Below the pieces are notes generated by a model, which saw nothing but the letters and a program-made list of their open reading frames with translations, had not been told where the DNA came from and made no database searches. The position numbers and the translations under genes were made by a program. 64,000 bases of DNA from Paractinoplanes abujensis (GTDB lineage Bacteria > Actinomycetota > Actinomycetes > Mycobacteriales > Micromonosporaceae). The stretch is taken from positions 6,696,001 to 6,760,000 of the forward strand of contig NZ_JACHMF010000001.1 of assembly GCF_014204895.1 (NCBI RefSeq), written 5' to 3'. Positions within the stretch are counted from its first letter, which is position 1. Every line of letters starts with the position of its first letter. Below are positions 5,199 to 8,913 of the stretch, one piece after another.

Positions 5199-7157
5199 GT
5201 GACGACGCACGGTGACGCGGTCGGTCCGTCGGCCCTGTCCGCCGCACCCGCTGCCACGCAAGACCCCGCCACGGCCGCCGAGGCCACCTCCGCGCCGGAA
5301 AAAGCGCAGGTCAGCGTCGTGTCCGCCGATTCGGCGAGCCCCTCTGAGGGTACTGAAGCCACTGTGCCCCGTCAGCCACATGAGAAACCCGAGGAGCAGC
5401 GGCCCACTGACCTCGGCGAGGCCGACGCGCGCATCGCCGAGGCGCCGCCCGCGATCACCCGGCTCGCCGACGCCCTCAGCGCCCTGCGCGCGGCGATCGC
5501 CGGCACGGCGTATCCGCTGGTCATGCCCTCGGCCGAGGAGGCCCAGCGGATCGGCACGGCACTGACCACCCAGCTCGACGACTACCTGCTGCCCCGCCTG
5601 GCCCGGCTCGACGCGCCGCTGCTGGTCGTGATCGGCGGTTCCACCGGCGCCGGCAAGTCGACGCTGGTCAACAGCCTGGTGCGGGCTCCCGTCAGCAGTG
5701 CCGGCGTGCTGCGCCCCACGACCCGCTCGCCGGTGCTGGTCAGCAACCCGGCCGATCTGCCCTGGTTCCAGCAGGGCCGGCTGCTGCCCGGGCTGGTGCG
5801 CACCCGCGAACCCAGCAACGACGCCAACGCGCTGCAGCTCGTCTCGGCCCCGGCGCTCGGCGCCGGGCTGGCGTTCCTCGACGCGCCCGACATCGACTCG
5901 GTGGTCGACCGCAACCGCAAGCTGGCCGCGCAGCTGCTCGCGGCGGCCGACCTGTGGCTGTTCGTCACGACCGCCGCCCGCTACGCCGACGCCGTGCCGT
6001 GGGAGCTGCTGACCACCGCCCGTCTGCGCGGCACGGTGATCGCCCTGGTGCTCGACCGGGTGCCGGCCGAGGCCGCCCCCGAGATCGCCACCCATCTGCA
6101 AGACATGCTCAACGTCCGCGAGCTGGGCGCCGCGCCGCTGTTCGTGCTGCCCGAGACCCGGCTCGACGGTCAGGGCCTGATCGGCGAGGACGTGATCCGC
6201 CCGCTGCACGACTGGTTCGGCCGGCTCGCGGCCGACGCCACCGCCCGCTCGGCAGTGGTGCGCCAGACACTGGACGGCGCGCTCATCTCGCTCGGCCCGG
6301 CCGTCGCGGGCCTGGCCGACGCGGCCGACGAGCAGGCCCGGGCGGCCAAGGCGCTCGGCGACCGGGTCACGGCGGCCTATCGCACCGGCCGGCAAACCCT
6401 GGGCAACGGCCTGCAGGACGGCCGGCTGCTGCGCGGCGAGGTGCTGGCCCGGTGGCAGGAGTTCGTCGGCACCGGCGAGTTCCTCAAGACCCTGGAGAGC
6501 AAGGTCGGCCAGCTCCGCGACCGATTCGTGGCCGCGCTCACCGGGCGTCCAGCCCCCGGGCGCAACCTGCAGATGGCGCTGGAGTCCCAGCTGGTCACGC
6601 TGCTGCGGGGCATCGCGGCGGACGCGGCCGAGCAGGCCTACTCGGGGTGGCAGGCCCACCCGGCCGGCGCCGCCCTGCTCGACCCGGGGCTGCAGCGGCC
6701 CGCGGCCGACCTGCCCGAACGGGCCGACCGGCTGGTGCGCGACTGGCAGCAGTGGGTGCTCGGCCTGGTGCGGGCCGAAGGCGCCGAGAAGCGGGTCGTC
6801 GCGCGCGGGGCGGCATACGCGGTCAACGGGGCCGGGCTGGCCGTGATGATCGCCGTGTTCACCTCGACCGCCTTCATCCCGACCGGGCTCGAGGTCGCAG
6901 CGGGCGCGGGCAGCGCGGTCGCGGCGCAGAAGGTGCTCGAGGCGATCTTCGGCGACCAGGCCATCCGTACGCTCGCCACCCAGGCCCGCGAGGACCTGCT
7001 GCTGCGCGCGGGCAAACTCTTCGACGAGGAGGCCGCGCGGTTCACCGACCGGCTGGCCGCGGTCGGCCTCGACGCGGAACCAGGGGCCCGGCTGCGCCAG
7101 GCCGCGGCCGACGTGGAGACTGCCCGGGGAGAACTGGCGTTGACGGGGAGCGCATGA
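5199..7157 (+). CDS. Dynamin-like membrane GTPase, 652 aa
   Basis: This is a large GTPase of the bacterial dynamin-like/YfjP type, probably membrane associated. Its substrate is unknown. The N-terminal ~85 residues are Ala/Pro/Glu-rich and disordered. The GTPase domain follows, with P-loop GSTGAGKST at about residues 147-155, switch PTTRSP and a DAPDIDSV segment. A helical region leads to a hydrophobic Gly/Ala-rich stretch at about 545-590 (AGLAVMIAVFTSTAFIP), a likely membrane hairpin. The start is GTG at 5199, and the gene is divergent from dnaK. A second related GTPase follows, as in many actinobacterial pairs. A role in membrane remodelling or stress protection is inference from dynamin families. 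Confidence 0.8.
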   Translation: MTTHGDAVGPSALSAAPAATQDPATAAEATSAPEKAQVSVVSADSASPSEGTEATVPRQPHEKPEEQRPTDLGEADARIAEAPPAITRLADALSALRAAIAGTAYPLVMPSAEEAQRIGTALTTQLDDYLLPRLARLDAPLLVVIGGSTGAGKSTLVNSLVRAPVSSAGVLRPTTRSPVLVSNPADLPWFQQGRLLPGLVRTREPSNDANALQLVSAPALGAGLAFLDAPDIDSVVDRNRKLAAQLLAAADLWLFVTTAARYADAVPWELLTTARLRGTVIALVLDRVPAEAAPEIATHLQDMLNVRELGAAPLFVLPETRLDGQGLIGEDVIRPLHDWFGRLAADATARSAVVRQTLDGALISLGPAVAGLADAADEQARAAKALGDRVTAAYRTGRQTLGNGLQDGRLLRGEVLARWQEFVGTGEFLKTLESKVGQLRDRFVAALTGRPAPGRNLQMALESQLVTLLRGIAADAAEQAYSGWQAHPAGAALLDPGLQRPAADLPERADRLVRDWQQWVLGLVRAEGAEKRVVARGAAYAVNGAGLAVMIAVFTSTAFIPTGLEVAAGAGSAVAAQKVLEAIFGDQAIRTLATQAREDLLLRAGKLFDEEAARFTDRLAAVGLDAEPGARLRQAAADVETARGELALTGSA

Positions 7158-7236
7158 GCGAGCTTGCGAGCGAATCATCAAGCTCAGTGCCCGGCTCACG
7201 CCTCTGCCGCAGCGAAGCGAAGGCGGGGGCATGAGC
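7152..7236 (+). repeat. 77-bp insertion-like module with 8-bp direct repeats and coupled mini-ORF
   Basis: GCATGAGC occurs at 7152-7159 and again at 7229-7236, exactly 77 bases apart. The first copy holds the stop of the upstream GTPase overlapped by an ATG (7154). The second holds the downstream ATG (7231) overlapped by a TGA (7232-7234). Between them runs an in-frame 26-codon ORF starting MSELASES. The interior has an inverted repeat GAGCTTG/CAAGCTC (7160-7166/7179-7185) and a weaker CGCCT/AGGCG hairpin (7199-7225). Removing 77 bases would restore a plain ATGA overlap. From memory, similar AGCGAGCGAATCATC-type elements recur in Micromonosporaceae genomes, but this cannot be checked here. 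Confidence 0.6.
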
Positions 7237-8913
7237 CTGGTGGAAAAAGTGCGGGACGATCGGATCGACTCCGAGCGGTTGGTGCAGCGGCTCGAAGCCC
7301 TGAGCCGATTCCTGCGCCTGGTCGACCCGCACCTCCCGGACAGCGACCTGGTGGCCGCACACACGCTGGTCGAGCGGGCCGGCAACCGGCTGGCGCTGTC
7401 GCGCGACCACACCGTCGTCGCGCTCGCCGGCAGCACCGGCAGCGGCAAGTCGAGCCTGTTCAACGCGTTGGCCCGGCTCAAACTGTCGCCGGTCGGCGTG
7501 CGCCGGCCGACCACCGGCGTCGCGCACGCGTGCGTCTGGGGCCCGCTCGAGCCGGCCAACCAGCTGCTCGACTGGGTGGGTGTGCTGCCGCGGCACCGGT
7601 TCATCCGCGAAAGCGCCCTCGACGGTGAGGACGAGGCCGCCCTGCGCGGGCTCGTGCTGCTCGATCTGCCCGACTTCGACTCGGTCGAGCGCGGCCACCG
7701 CCTCGAGGTCGACCGCCTGCTGGGCCTGGTCGACCTGATCGTCTGGGTGGTCGACCCGCAGAAGTACGGCGACCGCATCCTGCACCAGGCCTACCTTTCC
7801 CAGTTCCGGTCGCACGCCGCGGTCACCGTCGTCGTGCTCAACCAGGCCGACCGGCTGTCCGCACCGGACACCGAGCTGGTGCTGACCGACCTCAAGCGCC
7901 TGCTCACCGACGACGGTCTGGGCGAGGCCCCGGTGCTGGCCACCTCGGCCAAGCAGCCGGGCATGCTGGGCGAATTGCGCGGCTCGCTCGAGACCACGGT
8001 GGCCGAACGGCAGGCCGCGCTGCGCCGGGTCGCGGGCGACCTCGAGACGGTGAGCGAGCCGCTGACCGCCATGATCGGCCCGCCCGCGGCCGAGGACGAG
8101 GTCGACCGGGCCACCGTCCGCCAGCTGACCGACGCGCTCGCCGTCTCGGCCGGGGTGGGCGCGGTGGCCGACGCCACCGCGGCCGCCTACCGGCATCGGG
8201 CGGCCGCCGCCACCGGCTGGCCCCTGACCCGGGGCCTGCGCCGGCTGCGCCCCGACCCGCTGCGCCGGCTGCACCTGGCCGACCGGCCCGCCGAGACGCC
8301 GGCCGACGCGGAGCCGCGTGTCACCTCCACCGAGCTCGTGCCGCGCACCTCGCTGCCCGAGGCCGACGCGGCCCAGCGGTCCGCGGTCAGCCTGGCCGTC
8401 CGCGCGGTCTCCGACCGGGCCGCGGCGCCACTGCCCGAGGTCTGGAAGCCCGCGCTGACCAACGCGGCCCGCTCGCGGGCGGCCGACCTGTCCGACGCGC
8501 TCGACCGGGCGATCGGCACGACCGACCTGGGCGTGGCCAAGGCGCCGCTGTGGTGGCGGGTCGTGGGGGCGCTGCACTGGCTCTTCCTGGCCGCCGCCGT
8601 GTTCGGGCTGGGCTGGCTGATCTTCGGCTACGTGCTGCGGGCGCTCGGACTGCCCGAGTTGGACGATCCGAAGGTCGGCGTGGTGCCGCTCCCTACCGTG
8701 CTGCTGCTCGGCGGACTGCTGCTCGGGTTGCTGCTCTGGCTGCTGCTGCGGCCGGTCGTGGAGTGGGGCGCCCGGCGGGCCCGGCGCCGGGCCGAGCAGC
8801 GATTGCGGAACTCGGTCACCGAGGTCGGCCGGGAGTATGTGGTGGCTCCGGTGCGCGAGGTGCTGAACTCCTACGCACAGGCGCGTGAAGCTCTGACCGC
8901 GGTGCGTTCGTAG
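7231..8913 (+). CDS. YfjP-family GTPase with C-terminal membrane spans, 560 aa
   Basis: This is the second GTPase of the pair. The G domain has P-loop GSTGSGKSS at about residues 67-75, switch RRPTTG, a DLPDFDSVE G3-like segment near 150, and NQADRLS (G4-like) near 205. A long Ala/Arg-rich helical region follows. Two hydrophobic segments (about 445-470, LHWLFLAAAVFGLGWLIFGY, and about 485-512) anchor it in the membrane, and a basic amphipathic tail completes it. Overlap through the small coupled ORF at 7154-7234 ties its translation to the upstream GTPase. The two proteins probably form a hetero-oligomer, as paired bacterial dynamin-like proteins do (inference). Confidence 0.8.
   Translation: MSLVEKVRDDRIDSERLVQRLEALSRFLRLVDPHLPDSDLVAAHTLVERAGNRLALSRDHTVVALAGSTGSGKSSLFNALARLKLSPVGVRRPTTGVAHACVWGPLEPANQLLDWVGVLPRHRFIRESALDGEDEAALRGLVLLDLPDFDSVERGHRLEVDRLLGLVDLIVWVVDPQKYGDRILHQAYLSQFRSHAAVTVVVLNQADRLSAPDTELVLTDLKRLLTDDGLGEAPVLATSAKQPGMLGELRGSLETTVAERQAALRRVAGDLETVSEPLTAMIGPPAAEDEVDRATVRQLTDALAVSAGVGAVADATAAAYRHRAAAATGWPLTRGLRRLRPDPLRRLHLADRPAETPADAEPRVTSTELVPRTSLPEADAAQRSAVSLAVRAVSDRAAAPLPEVWKPALTNAARSRAADLSDALDRAIGTTDLGVAKAPLWWRVVGALHWLFLAAAVFGLGWLIFGYVLRALGLPELDDPKVGVVPLPTVLLLGGLLLGLLLWLLLRPVVEWGARRARRRAEQRLRNSVTEVGREYVVAPVREVLNSYAQAREALTAVRS

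Follow-up and report, generated by a model that had tools for sequence, protein, structure and literature searches.

A Probable MIRU-Type Mobile Element With a Register-Conserved Leader ORF at Gene Starts of Paractinoplanes abujensis and Other Actinobacteria

The Element and Its Neighbouring Genes

A 77-bp unit that separates two GTPase genes in a 64,000-nt stretch of the Paractinoplanes abujensis genome (the whole stretch analysed, hereafter the window) is very probably a non-autonomous mobile element of the MIRU type, which inserted at a DTGA start codon and carries an ORF in register and its own Shine-Dalgarno sequence within a stem, and which would thereby couple the downstream gene (Table 1).

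The sequence GCATGAGC occurs at 7152-7159 and 7229-7236, exactly 77 bases apart as the initial annotation had reported, with no third occurrence in the window; two occurrences per 64 kb are at chance level (shuffle mean 2.83), and the significance of the repeat comes from the repeat family in relatives. The initial annotation had also described ATGA stop-start overlaps at both copies, an open 26-codon ORF between them, two flanking GTPase genes and internal inverted repeats, all of which are borne out, the inverted repeats as a folding prediction. Both neighbours match Pfam Dynamin_N with scores just over the cut-off, and the downstream GTPase is present in all 60 genus genomes searched. The element is predicted to fold with a minimum free energy of -39.1 kcal/mol (z -1.78), a value equalled or bettered by 7 of 200 shuffles. 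Because ATGA flanks both sides, the element may equally be placed at 7158-7234. Rfam matches to mir-484 and STnc450 over 6800-7700 were both under their gathering scores, and were taken as chance.

Table 1. Positions of the element, its parts and the two neighbouring genes in the window.
Feature	Position	Strand	Basis
77-bp element (one period)	7154..7230	+	Second full copy in own genome; empty allele in L076, L077, L078
Left ATGA: stop TGA of upstream gene overlaps start ATG of leader ORF	7154..7157	+	Sequence
Leader ORF, 26 codons, open, MSELASESSSSVPGSRLCRSEAKAGA	7154..7234	+	Register kept across the family
Conserved core GCGAGCGAATCATC	7166..7179	+	Sequence comparison
Predicted left stem GAGCTTG / CAAGCTC	7160..7185	+	Single-sequence folding prediction only
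Right hairpin with ribosome-binding region and start codon of downstream gene	7194..7236	+	Predicted in the window; stem covaries in relatives
Weak Shine-Dalgarno AAGG	7220..7223	+	Sequence
Right ATGA: stop of leader ORF overlaps start of downstream gene	7231..7234	+	Sequence
Upstream gene, Dynamin_N-type GTPase	5199..7157	+	Ends in TGA of left ATGA; Pfam match
Downstream gene, Dynamin_N / MMR_HSR1 GTPase	7231..8913	+	Begins in right ATGA; Pfam match

Empty Sites and Insertion

Thirty loci were fetched for the window junction, one of them the window's own, and 20 of the 29 relatives aligned across the junction at the set thresholds; 19 of these 20 are without the element, and the other (L075) has a shortened copy. 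The empty alleles read ...GGGGAGCGC, then ATGA, then GCCT. Three of them (L076, L077, and L078) have GCGTTGACGGGGAGCGC-ATGA-GCCT here and an upstream frame that stays open up to its TGA, which is exactly what deleting one period from the window would leave; a single ATGA overlap, which the initial annotation had predicted for such a deletion, thus exists in relatives. The L075 copy, at 53 bp, is shorter by two 12-base blocks and retains an open ORF in register.

For 12 further junctions, the joined flanks were searched in 67 genus genomes; 10 of the 12 (11 of 13 with the window junction) proved to have empty alleles carrying DTGA where the element inserts, the number of alleles at each junction being an at-least figure drawn from a selection of the matched places. 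This search of 67 genomes returned no empty allele for L058 and L059. At the level of sequence comparison, these alleles demonstrate insertion at a DTGA start codon.

An ATGA junction already in place could also give rise to such a module by slippage or local duplication, and exact tandem arrays in several genera are of the kind that these processes would leave. For the window copy this origin is contradicted by the empty alleles: the inserted 77 bp are found neither within nor beside the empty allele, and the 77-bp unit also sits at unrelated junctions, which leaves slippage hardly any probability here. Of the two origins offered by the initial annotation, mobility is thus supported by dispersed copies and empty sites, and slippage fails beyond the tandem arrays.

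Orthologous occupied junctions often share length and frame, as in L022, L036, L055, and L071, which are all 77 bp and have 77-81% identity downstream. Orthologous occupied junctions that differ were also found (L202/L277, 65 vs 80 bp; L330/L342; L205/L235); the L202/L277 difference reflects either two independent insertions or a deletion with a compensatory change. At this Micromonospora-type junction the fifth target bases are C and G, each matched by an internal base as judged by eye.

Distribution of the Family

The search for relatives proposed in the initial annotation found related copies in many genomes; with the empty junctions described above, neither of the two outcomes that it named as a refutation was observed. 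The genome of the window contains a second full copy (90% identity across 84 bases) and a 29-base remnant. Two more diverged copies were noticed in the same genome, L443 (C1:8219220-8219300, minus strand) and L444 (C1:8344592-8344669, plus strand); by eye, L443 precedes the same downstream gene as copies L020 and L311 of two other species. The exact 14-mer GCGAGCGAATCATC occurs in 12 of 60 genomes (own included) and the reversed pattern in none, with at least four of the 14-mer matches (L009, L014, L018, and L072) judged from their flanks to be chance. The pattern ATGAGCGAGC-N0-12-GAATCATC was matched in 81 of 250 genomes and in 13 of the 44 genera of the family. Among named contigs, the matches listed (at least 120 stretches) included Micromonospora, Actinoplanes, Catenuloplanes, Phytohabitans, Pseudonocardia, Actinokineospora, Kitasatospora, Nocardia, Nocardioides, and others; 23 non-actinobacterial records listed with them were left out as chance.

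A covariance model (R1), built from 41 sequences with the window copy among them, found matches across the order in 132 of 298 genomes, which fall in 36 of 77 genera; at most about 15 candidates were scored per genome, so that copy numbers from this order-wide search are lower bounds. In a Mycobacterium-type genus, which differs from the genus of the window's own genome, the members are 65 bp long, with matches in 57 of 218 genomes (R1) and 130 of 396 genomes (R2); this genus shares blocks of 79-85% identity with Mycolicibacterium septicum, a record matched by 4 of 40 loci.

Several genera have exact tandem arrays, spaced at 65, 74, 77, or 80; the array of Pseudonocardia nigra, with a spacing of 75, is an exception to the register rule set out below. 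A different type of array was observed in Actinophytocola and Pseudonocardia records (L214 and L252), where the left-end core is repeated in tandem with a period of about 30 bp. Certain copies (L016, L027, L068, L069, and L198) end after the core, and in these the downstream gene seems to have its start fused to the left end of the element; such core-truncated copies possibly represent decay into new N-termini.

Ends and Gene Context

Left ends were sought by resemblance to ATGAGCGA preceding a GAATCAT core, so that their likeness is partly by construction. The 334 left ends yielded 299 with a DTGA start in range, and 280 of these had a strong stem, which, through the hairpin, decided the right end in the length counts; the remaining 35 of the 334 include truncated copies and contig ends. 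The non-actinobacterial records, 30 orthologue loci (L074-L103), and duplicate sequences were left out before counting, and the 280 copies were taken without selection for length.

The left end begins with A in 277 of the 280 copies, and of 237 copies whose right end could be assessed, 230 have a coding start there. In 167 of 240 copies, the upstream coding frame terminates at the left TGA; the other 73 are away from any upstream stop, and many of them sit at what resemble isolated gene starts. Copies lie at DTGA starts, mostly in stop-start overlaps and with the register kept, in line with the gene-junction test proposed in the initial annotation; its suggestion that the stop-start overlap may be the target holds for most sites, and gives way to the DTGA start codon as the target, given the 73 copies without an upstream stop. 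Upstream of the right start, 252 of 280 copies carry GGAGG, GAGG, or GGAG.

A TANNNT-like box was noted by eye approximately 7-9 nt 5' of the element's first ATG in L241, L271, L232, L253, L353, and others. At isolated gene starts the position of this box resembles that of leaderless promoters, and leaderless starts seem also to be taken over.

Register of the Leader ORF

The ATGA-to-ATGA lengths of the 280 copies are 65 (32 copies), 71 (13), 74 (16), 77 (99), and 80 bp (100), the remaining 20 having other lengths. In 265 copies the length is 2 mod 3, compared with 99.4 expected if the parts before and after the core were independent; the 265 are not independent events because copies within a clade share descent, and the safest count is thus that all five abundant lengths obey the rule. 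The offset of the core from the start is 0, 1, and 2 mod 3 in 128, 93, and 59 copies, respectively, and the remainder varies likewise. In alignment A3, each of the 50 rows has a 1-nt change before the core that is offset by one after it, a balance that is partly due to selection of the sample, as A3 contains 80-bp copies only. The 15 copies outside the rule have a length of 76 bp (three copies) or, rarely, 57, 60, 64, 72, 75, 78, 81, or 87 bp, as would decayed or miscalled copies.

None of the 150 distinct copies in the four main length classes has an in-frame stop, and 39 of these 150 carry a stop in another frame. Comparison of the copies thus demonstrates a predicted ORF with a start at one end, a stop overlapping the start of the next gene at the other, and a conserved register. 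Since the core is read in all three frames, what is kept is the reading register and not the peptide, a pattern consistent with selection to keep the path of the ribosome unbroken. An ORF kept open and in register in nearly every copy would also be explained by a leader peptide or attenuator-like regulator conserved for the peptide itself, a reading made very improbable by the three reading frames of the core, by unit lengths from 53 to 80 bp, and by neighbour genes of many kinds. A short cysteine-containing peptide (e.g., MSEACERIIGAECGNRACEVTA) was seen to recur in Mycobacterium-type 65-bp copies (L289 and L298).

Covariation of the Right Stem

The right stem joins the start-codon region to an upstream segment, which is CTCAT in most Actinoplanes- and Micromonospora-type copies. 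Alignment cells in which both sides of a pair have changed number 33 in 46 genus copies (10.7 when shuffled), 27 in 50 Micromonospora-type copies (7.9), and 23 in 27 Mycobacterium-type copies (6.2), with 0 of 500 shuffles as high in any of the three groups; relatedness can inflate this shuffle control, and slid structures, in which relatedness is kept, score far lower. Counting pairs with a double change gives a weaker result: 20, 0, and 3 of 500 shuffles equalled or exceeded the observed number in the genus, Micromonospora-type, and Mycobacterium-type copies, respectively. The drawn inner helix of two pairs failed, with 1.1% paired among the 46 genus copies, and the central mismatch (pair 51:73) is retained in 41 of these 46.

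Folding energies are mostly unremarkable against shuffles (z of -1.78, -0.45, -1.87, -0.56, +0.88, -0.73, and -4.09 for seven copies); a different fold is predicted for two of the seven. From the compensatory changes, the right end, with the putative Shine-Dalgarno sequence and the start codon, is in a stem, and the element evidently brings its own predicted Shine-Dalgarno within this conserved structure.

Target Choice

Among 155 background DTGA overlaps without the element, the first base is G in 78, A in 70, and T in 7, and the fifth base is G in 60, C in 52, T in 23, and A in 20. Beside elements, the right first base is A in 224, G in 12, and T in 2, and the fifth base is G in 201, C in 21, T in 8, and A in 8. 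The closest aligned empty allele has GTGA at L047, L053, L056, and L067, and the occupied right end has ATGA; given this difference at four junctions, the A may come from the element itself. At 10 of 11 junctions (all but L053), the fifth base of the occupied allele is also that of its closest empty counterpart; examples are L316, with ATGAT in 12 of 12 empty alleles, and L017, with ATGAC.

In the 76-77 bp class of the genus, the internal base that faces the fifth base is complementary to it in 10 of the 14 copies with a flank other than G (GC 6, TA 3, AT 1); the corresponding figures elsewhere are 0 of 4 (80 bp), 0 of 5 (74 bp), 1 of 3 (71 bp), and 2 of 5 (Mycobacterium-type 65-bp copies). 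Over all 280 copies, the internal and fifth bases form Watson-Crick pairs in 220 (shuffled mean 192; 0 of 10,000 shuffles as high, in a shuffle that ignores clades). The fifth target base is G in 22 of 27 Mycobacterium-type copies, none of which has pairing at the position opposite the last A of ATGA. Because these copies favour G without such pairing, guide pairing cannot by itself account for target choice; pairing of the internal base is a clue to mechanism in one clade, and no general rule.

Both the stem and the target-base match, and only these two features, could alternatively result from template-switch correction of an imperfect palindrome and owe nothing to selection or guide pairing. 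Such correction could work on any hairpin and extend to the flanking base; the orthologous copies L073 (flank G) and L327 (flank C) nevertheless both retain an internal C, and the central mismatch persists in most genus copies, and we consider this reading of the two features unlikely.

Candidate Mobilizers

An alternative is that the family is an ordinary MITE or REP with an incidental ORF, mobilized in trans by a Y1 transposase of the IS200/IS605 or RAYT type; it has in common with such repeats a short hairpin, a fixed orientation, and a tetranucleotide at the boundary. The internal NTCAT that is complementary to the target ATGAN in Actinoplanes-type copies also points in this direction, and recalls the guide-target pairing of IS200/IS605. 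The register rule, however, is unexpected for an incidental ORF, and PF01797 (Y1 transposase) is missing from 8 of 12 copy-rich genomes and from the genome of the window, and present in 3 of 12 copy-free genomes. As PF01797 does not track copy number, a Y1 transposase is an unlikely mobilizer, although the enzyme may have been lost; an ordinary MITE or REP is accordingly an improbable description of the family. Six Y1 transposase matches, several of them partial, were observed at about 6.5-8.0 Mb of G021:C1, in a copy-rich genome. With respect to carriers, the left-end pattern was found in 11 viral contigs, none of which by eye runs on into the element, and the one Actinoplanes-type copy searched against plasmids gave no match.

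Proposed Mechanism and Significance

Under the preferred reading as a MIRU-type coupling element, ribosomes that end the upstream gene would re-initiate at the left ATGA and translate the leader ORF, which would open the right stem; re-initiation at the right ATGA would then keep the downstream gene translated. Insertion would be tolerated because the downstream gene remains translated. At isolated gene starts, the first ATG of the element would replace the original start. We infer such translational coupling through the element from the arrangement of its overlaps, ORF, and stem.

A broader proposal, which we regard as possible and put forward tentatively, is that a widespread actinobacterial class of 53-80 bp elements inserts at start codons only, with NTCAT/ATGAN target pairing in some clades, is moved by a not-yet-named enzyme, and leaves a portable translation coupler, the MIRUs of mycobacteria being one branch of this class.

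Soil actinomycetes, which have tandem arrays and empty alleles alongside dozens of copies, offer a tractable place for finding the mobilizing enzyme and for testing whether start codons are targeted. The register rule provides strong comparative support for the view that a tiny ORF can persist purely for the delivery of ribosomes to the next gene, and the units could be natural coupling parts for high-GC hosts.

Comparison With Known Systems

MIRU repeats are used for strain typing in tuberculosis. The abstract of Supply et al. 1997 reportedly presents MIRUs as lacking dyad symmetry; we know of no account of how MIRUs move. REP and other IS200/IS605-derived repeats, like the present family, are short hairpin repeats, and may base-pair with their targets; they differ from it in that no Y1 was found in 8 of 12 copy-rich genomes and in the register-conserved ORF found here.

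The RUP, ERIC/RU-1, and Correia/NEMIS repeats are likewise small, dispersed, and intergenic, according to the available part of PMC2229807. These have terminal inverted repeats, whereas the ends here are direct ATGA repeats with an inverted repeat at the right end only; the terminal inverted repeats at both ends that define a MITE are thus missing. Rickettsia palindromic elements (RPEs) also combine a short repeat with an open frame tolerated by the host (PMC2229807); they are fused in frame inside protein genes, in contrast to the copies here, which lie at gene starts.

The closest likeness is to the MIRUs of mycobacteria, which, in the excerpt of PMC12548453 available to us, a 2025 review that cites Supply et al. 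1997, seem mobile, insert at start codons, and have an internal ORF coupled at -4 nt; excerpts of two further papers describe 77-bp and 53-bp MIRU units in tandem at the senX3-regX3 / MIRU04 locus (PMC4213456, PMC2453075). To the extent of these excerpts, the present family shares start-codon insertion, the small ORF in the -4 arrangement, and tandem arrays with MIRUs (PMC12548453, PMC4213456, PMC2453075), and both MIRU sizes, each 2 mod 3, recur in the window (77 bp) and in L075 (53 bp) (PMC4213456, PMC2453075). DTGA start-codon insertion is found here in the empty alleles of 11 of 13 junctions and the 230 of 237 right coding starts, the small ORF overlaps its neighbours by DTGA in the window and is in register in 265 of 280 copies, tandem units have a spacing of 77, and the Mycobacterium-type genus close to Mycolicibacterium septicum gives a mycobacterial occurrence; sizes of 65, 71, 74, and 80 bp are also common in this family.

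A start-codon-inserting, coupling repeat is consequently not new in kind, MIRUs being in print as such in the excerpted text of PMC12548453. New here are the spread beyond mycobacteria, the existence of empty sites, the rule on register, and an internal base complementary to the target base in Actinoplanes-type copies. Among CC-licensed PMC papers, a search that is weak evidence of absence returned no recognised description of MIRU-like elements outside mycobacteria, nor of this spread, of empty sites at junctions, of the register rule, of a start-codon stem that covaries, or of the target-base match. The family differs from MIRUs in spanning many genera outside Mycobacterium, and its covarying stem around the start codon may be a further difference. 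We class it, from this comparison, as MIRU-type by way of working, a variant and not a proven MIRU by descent.
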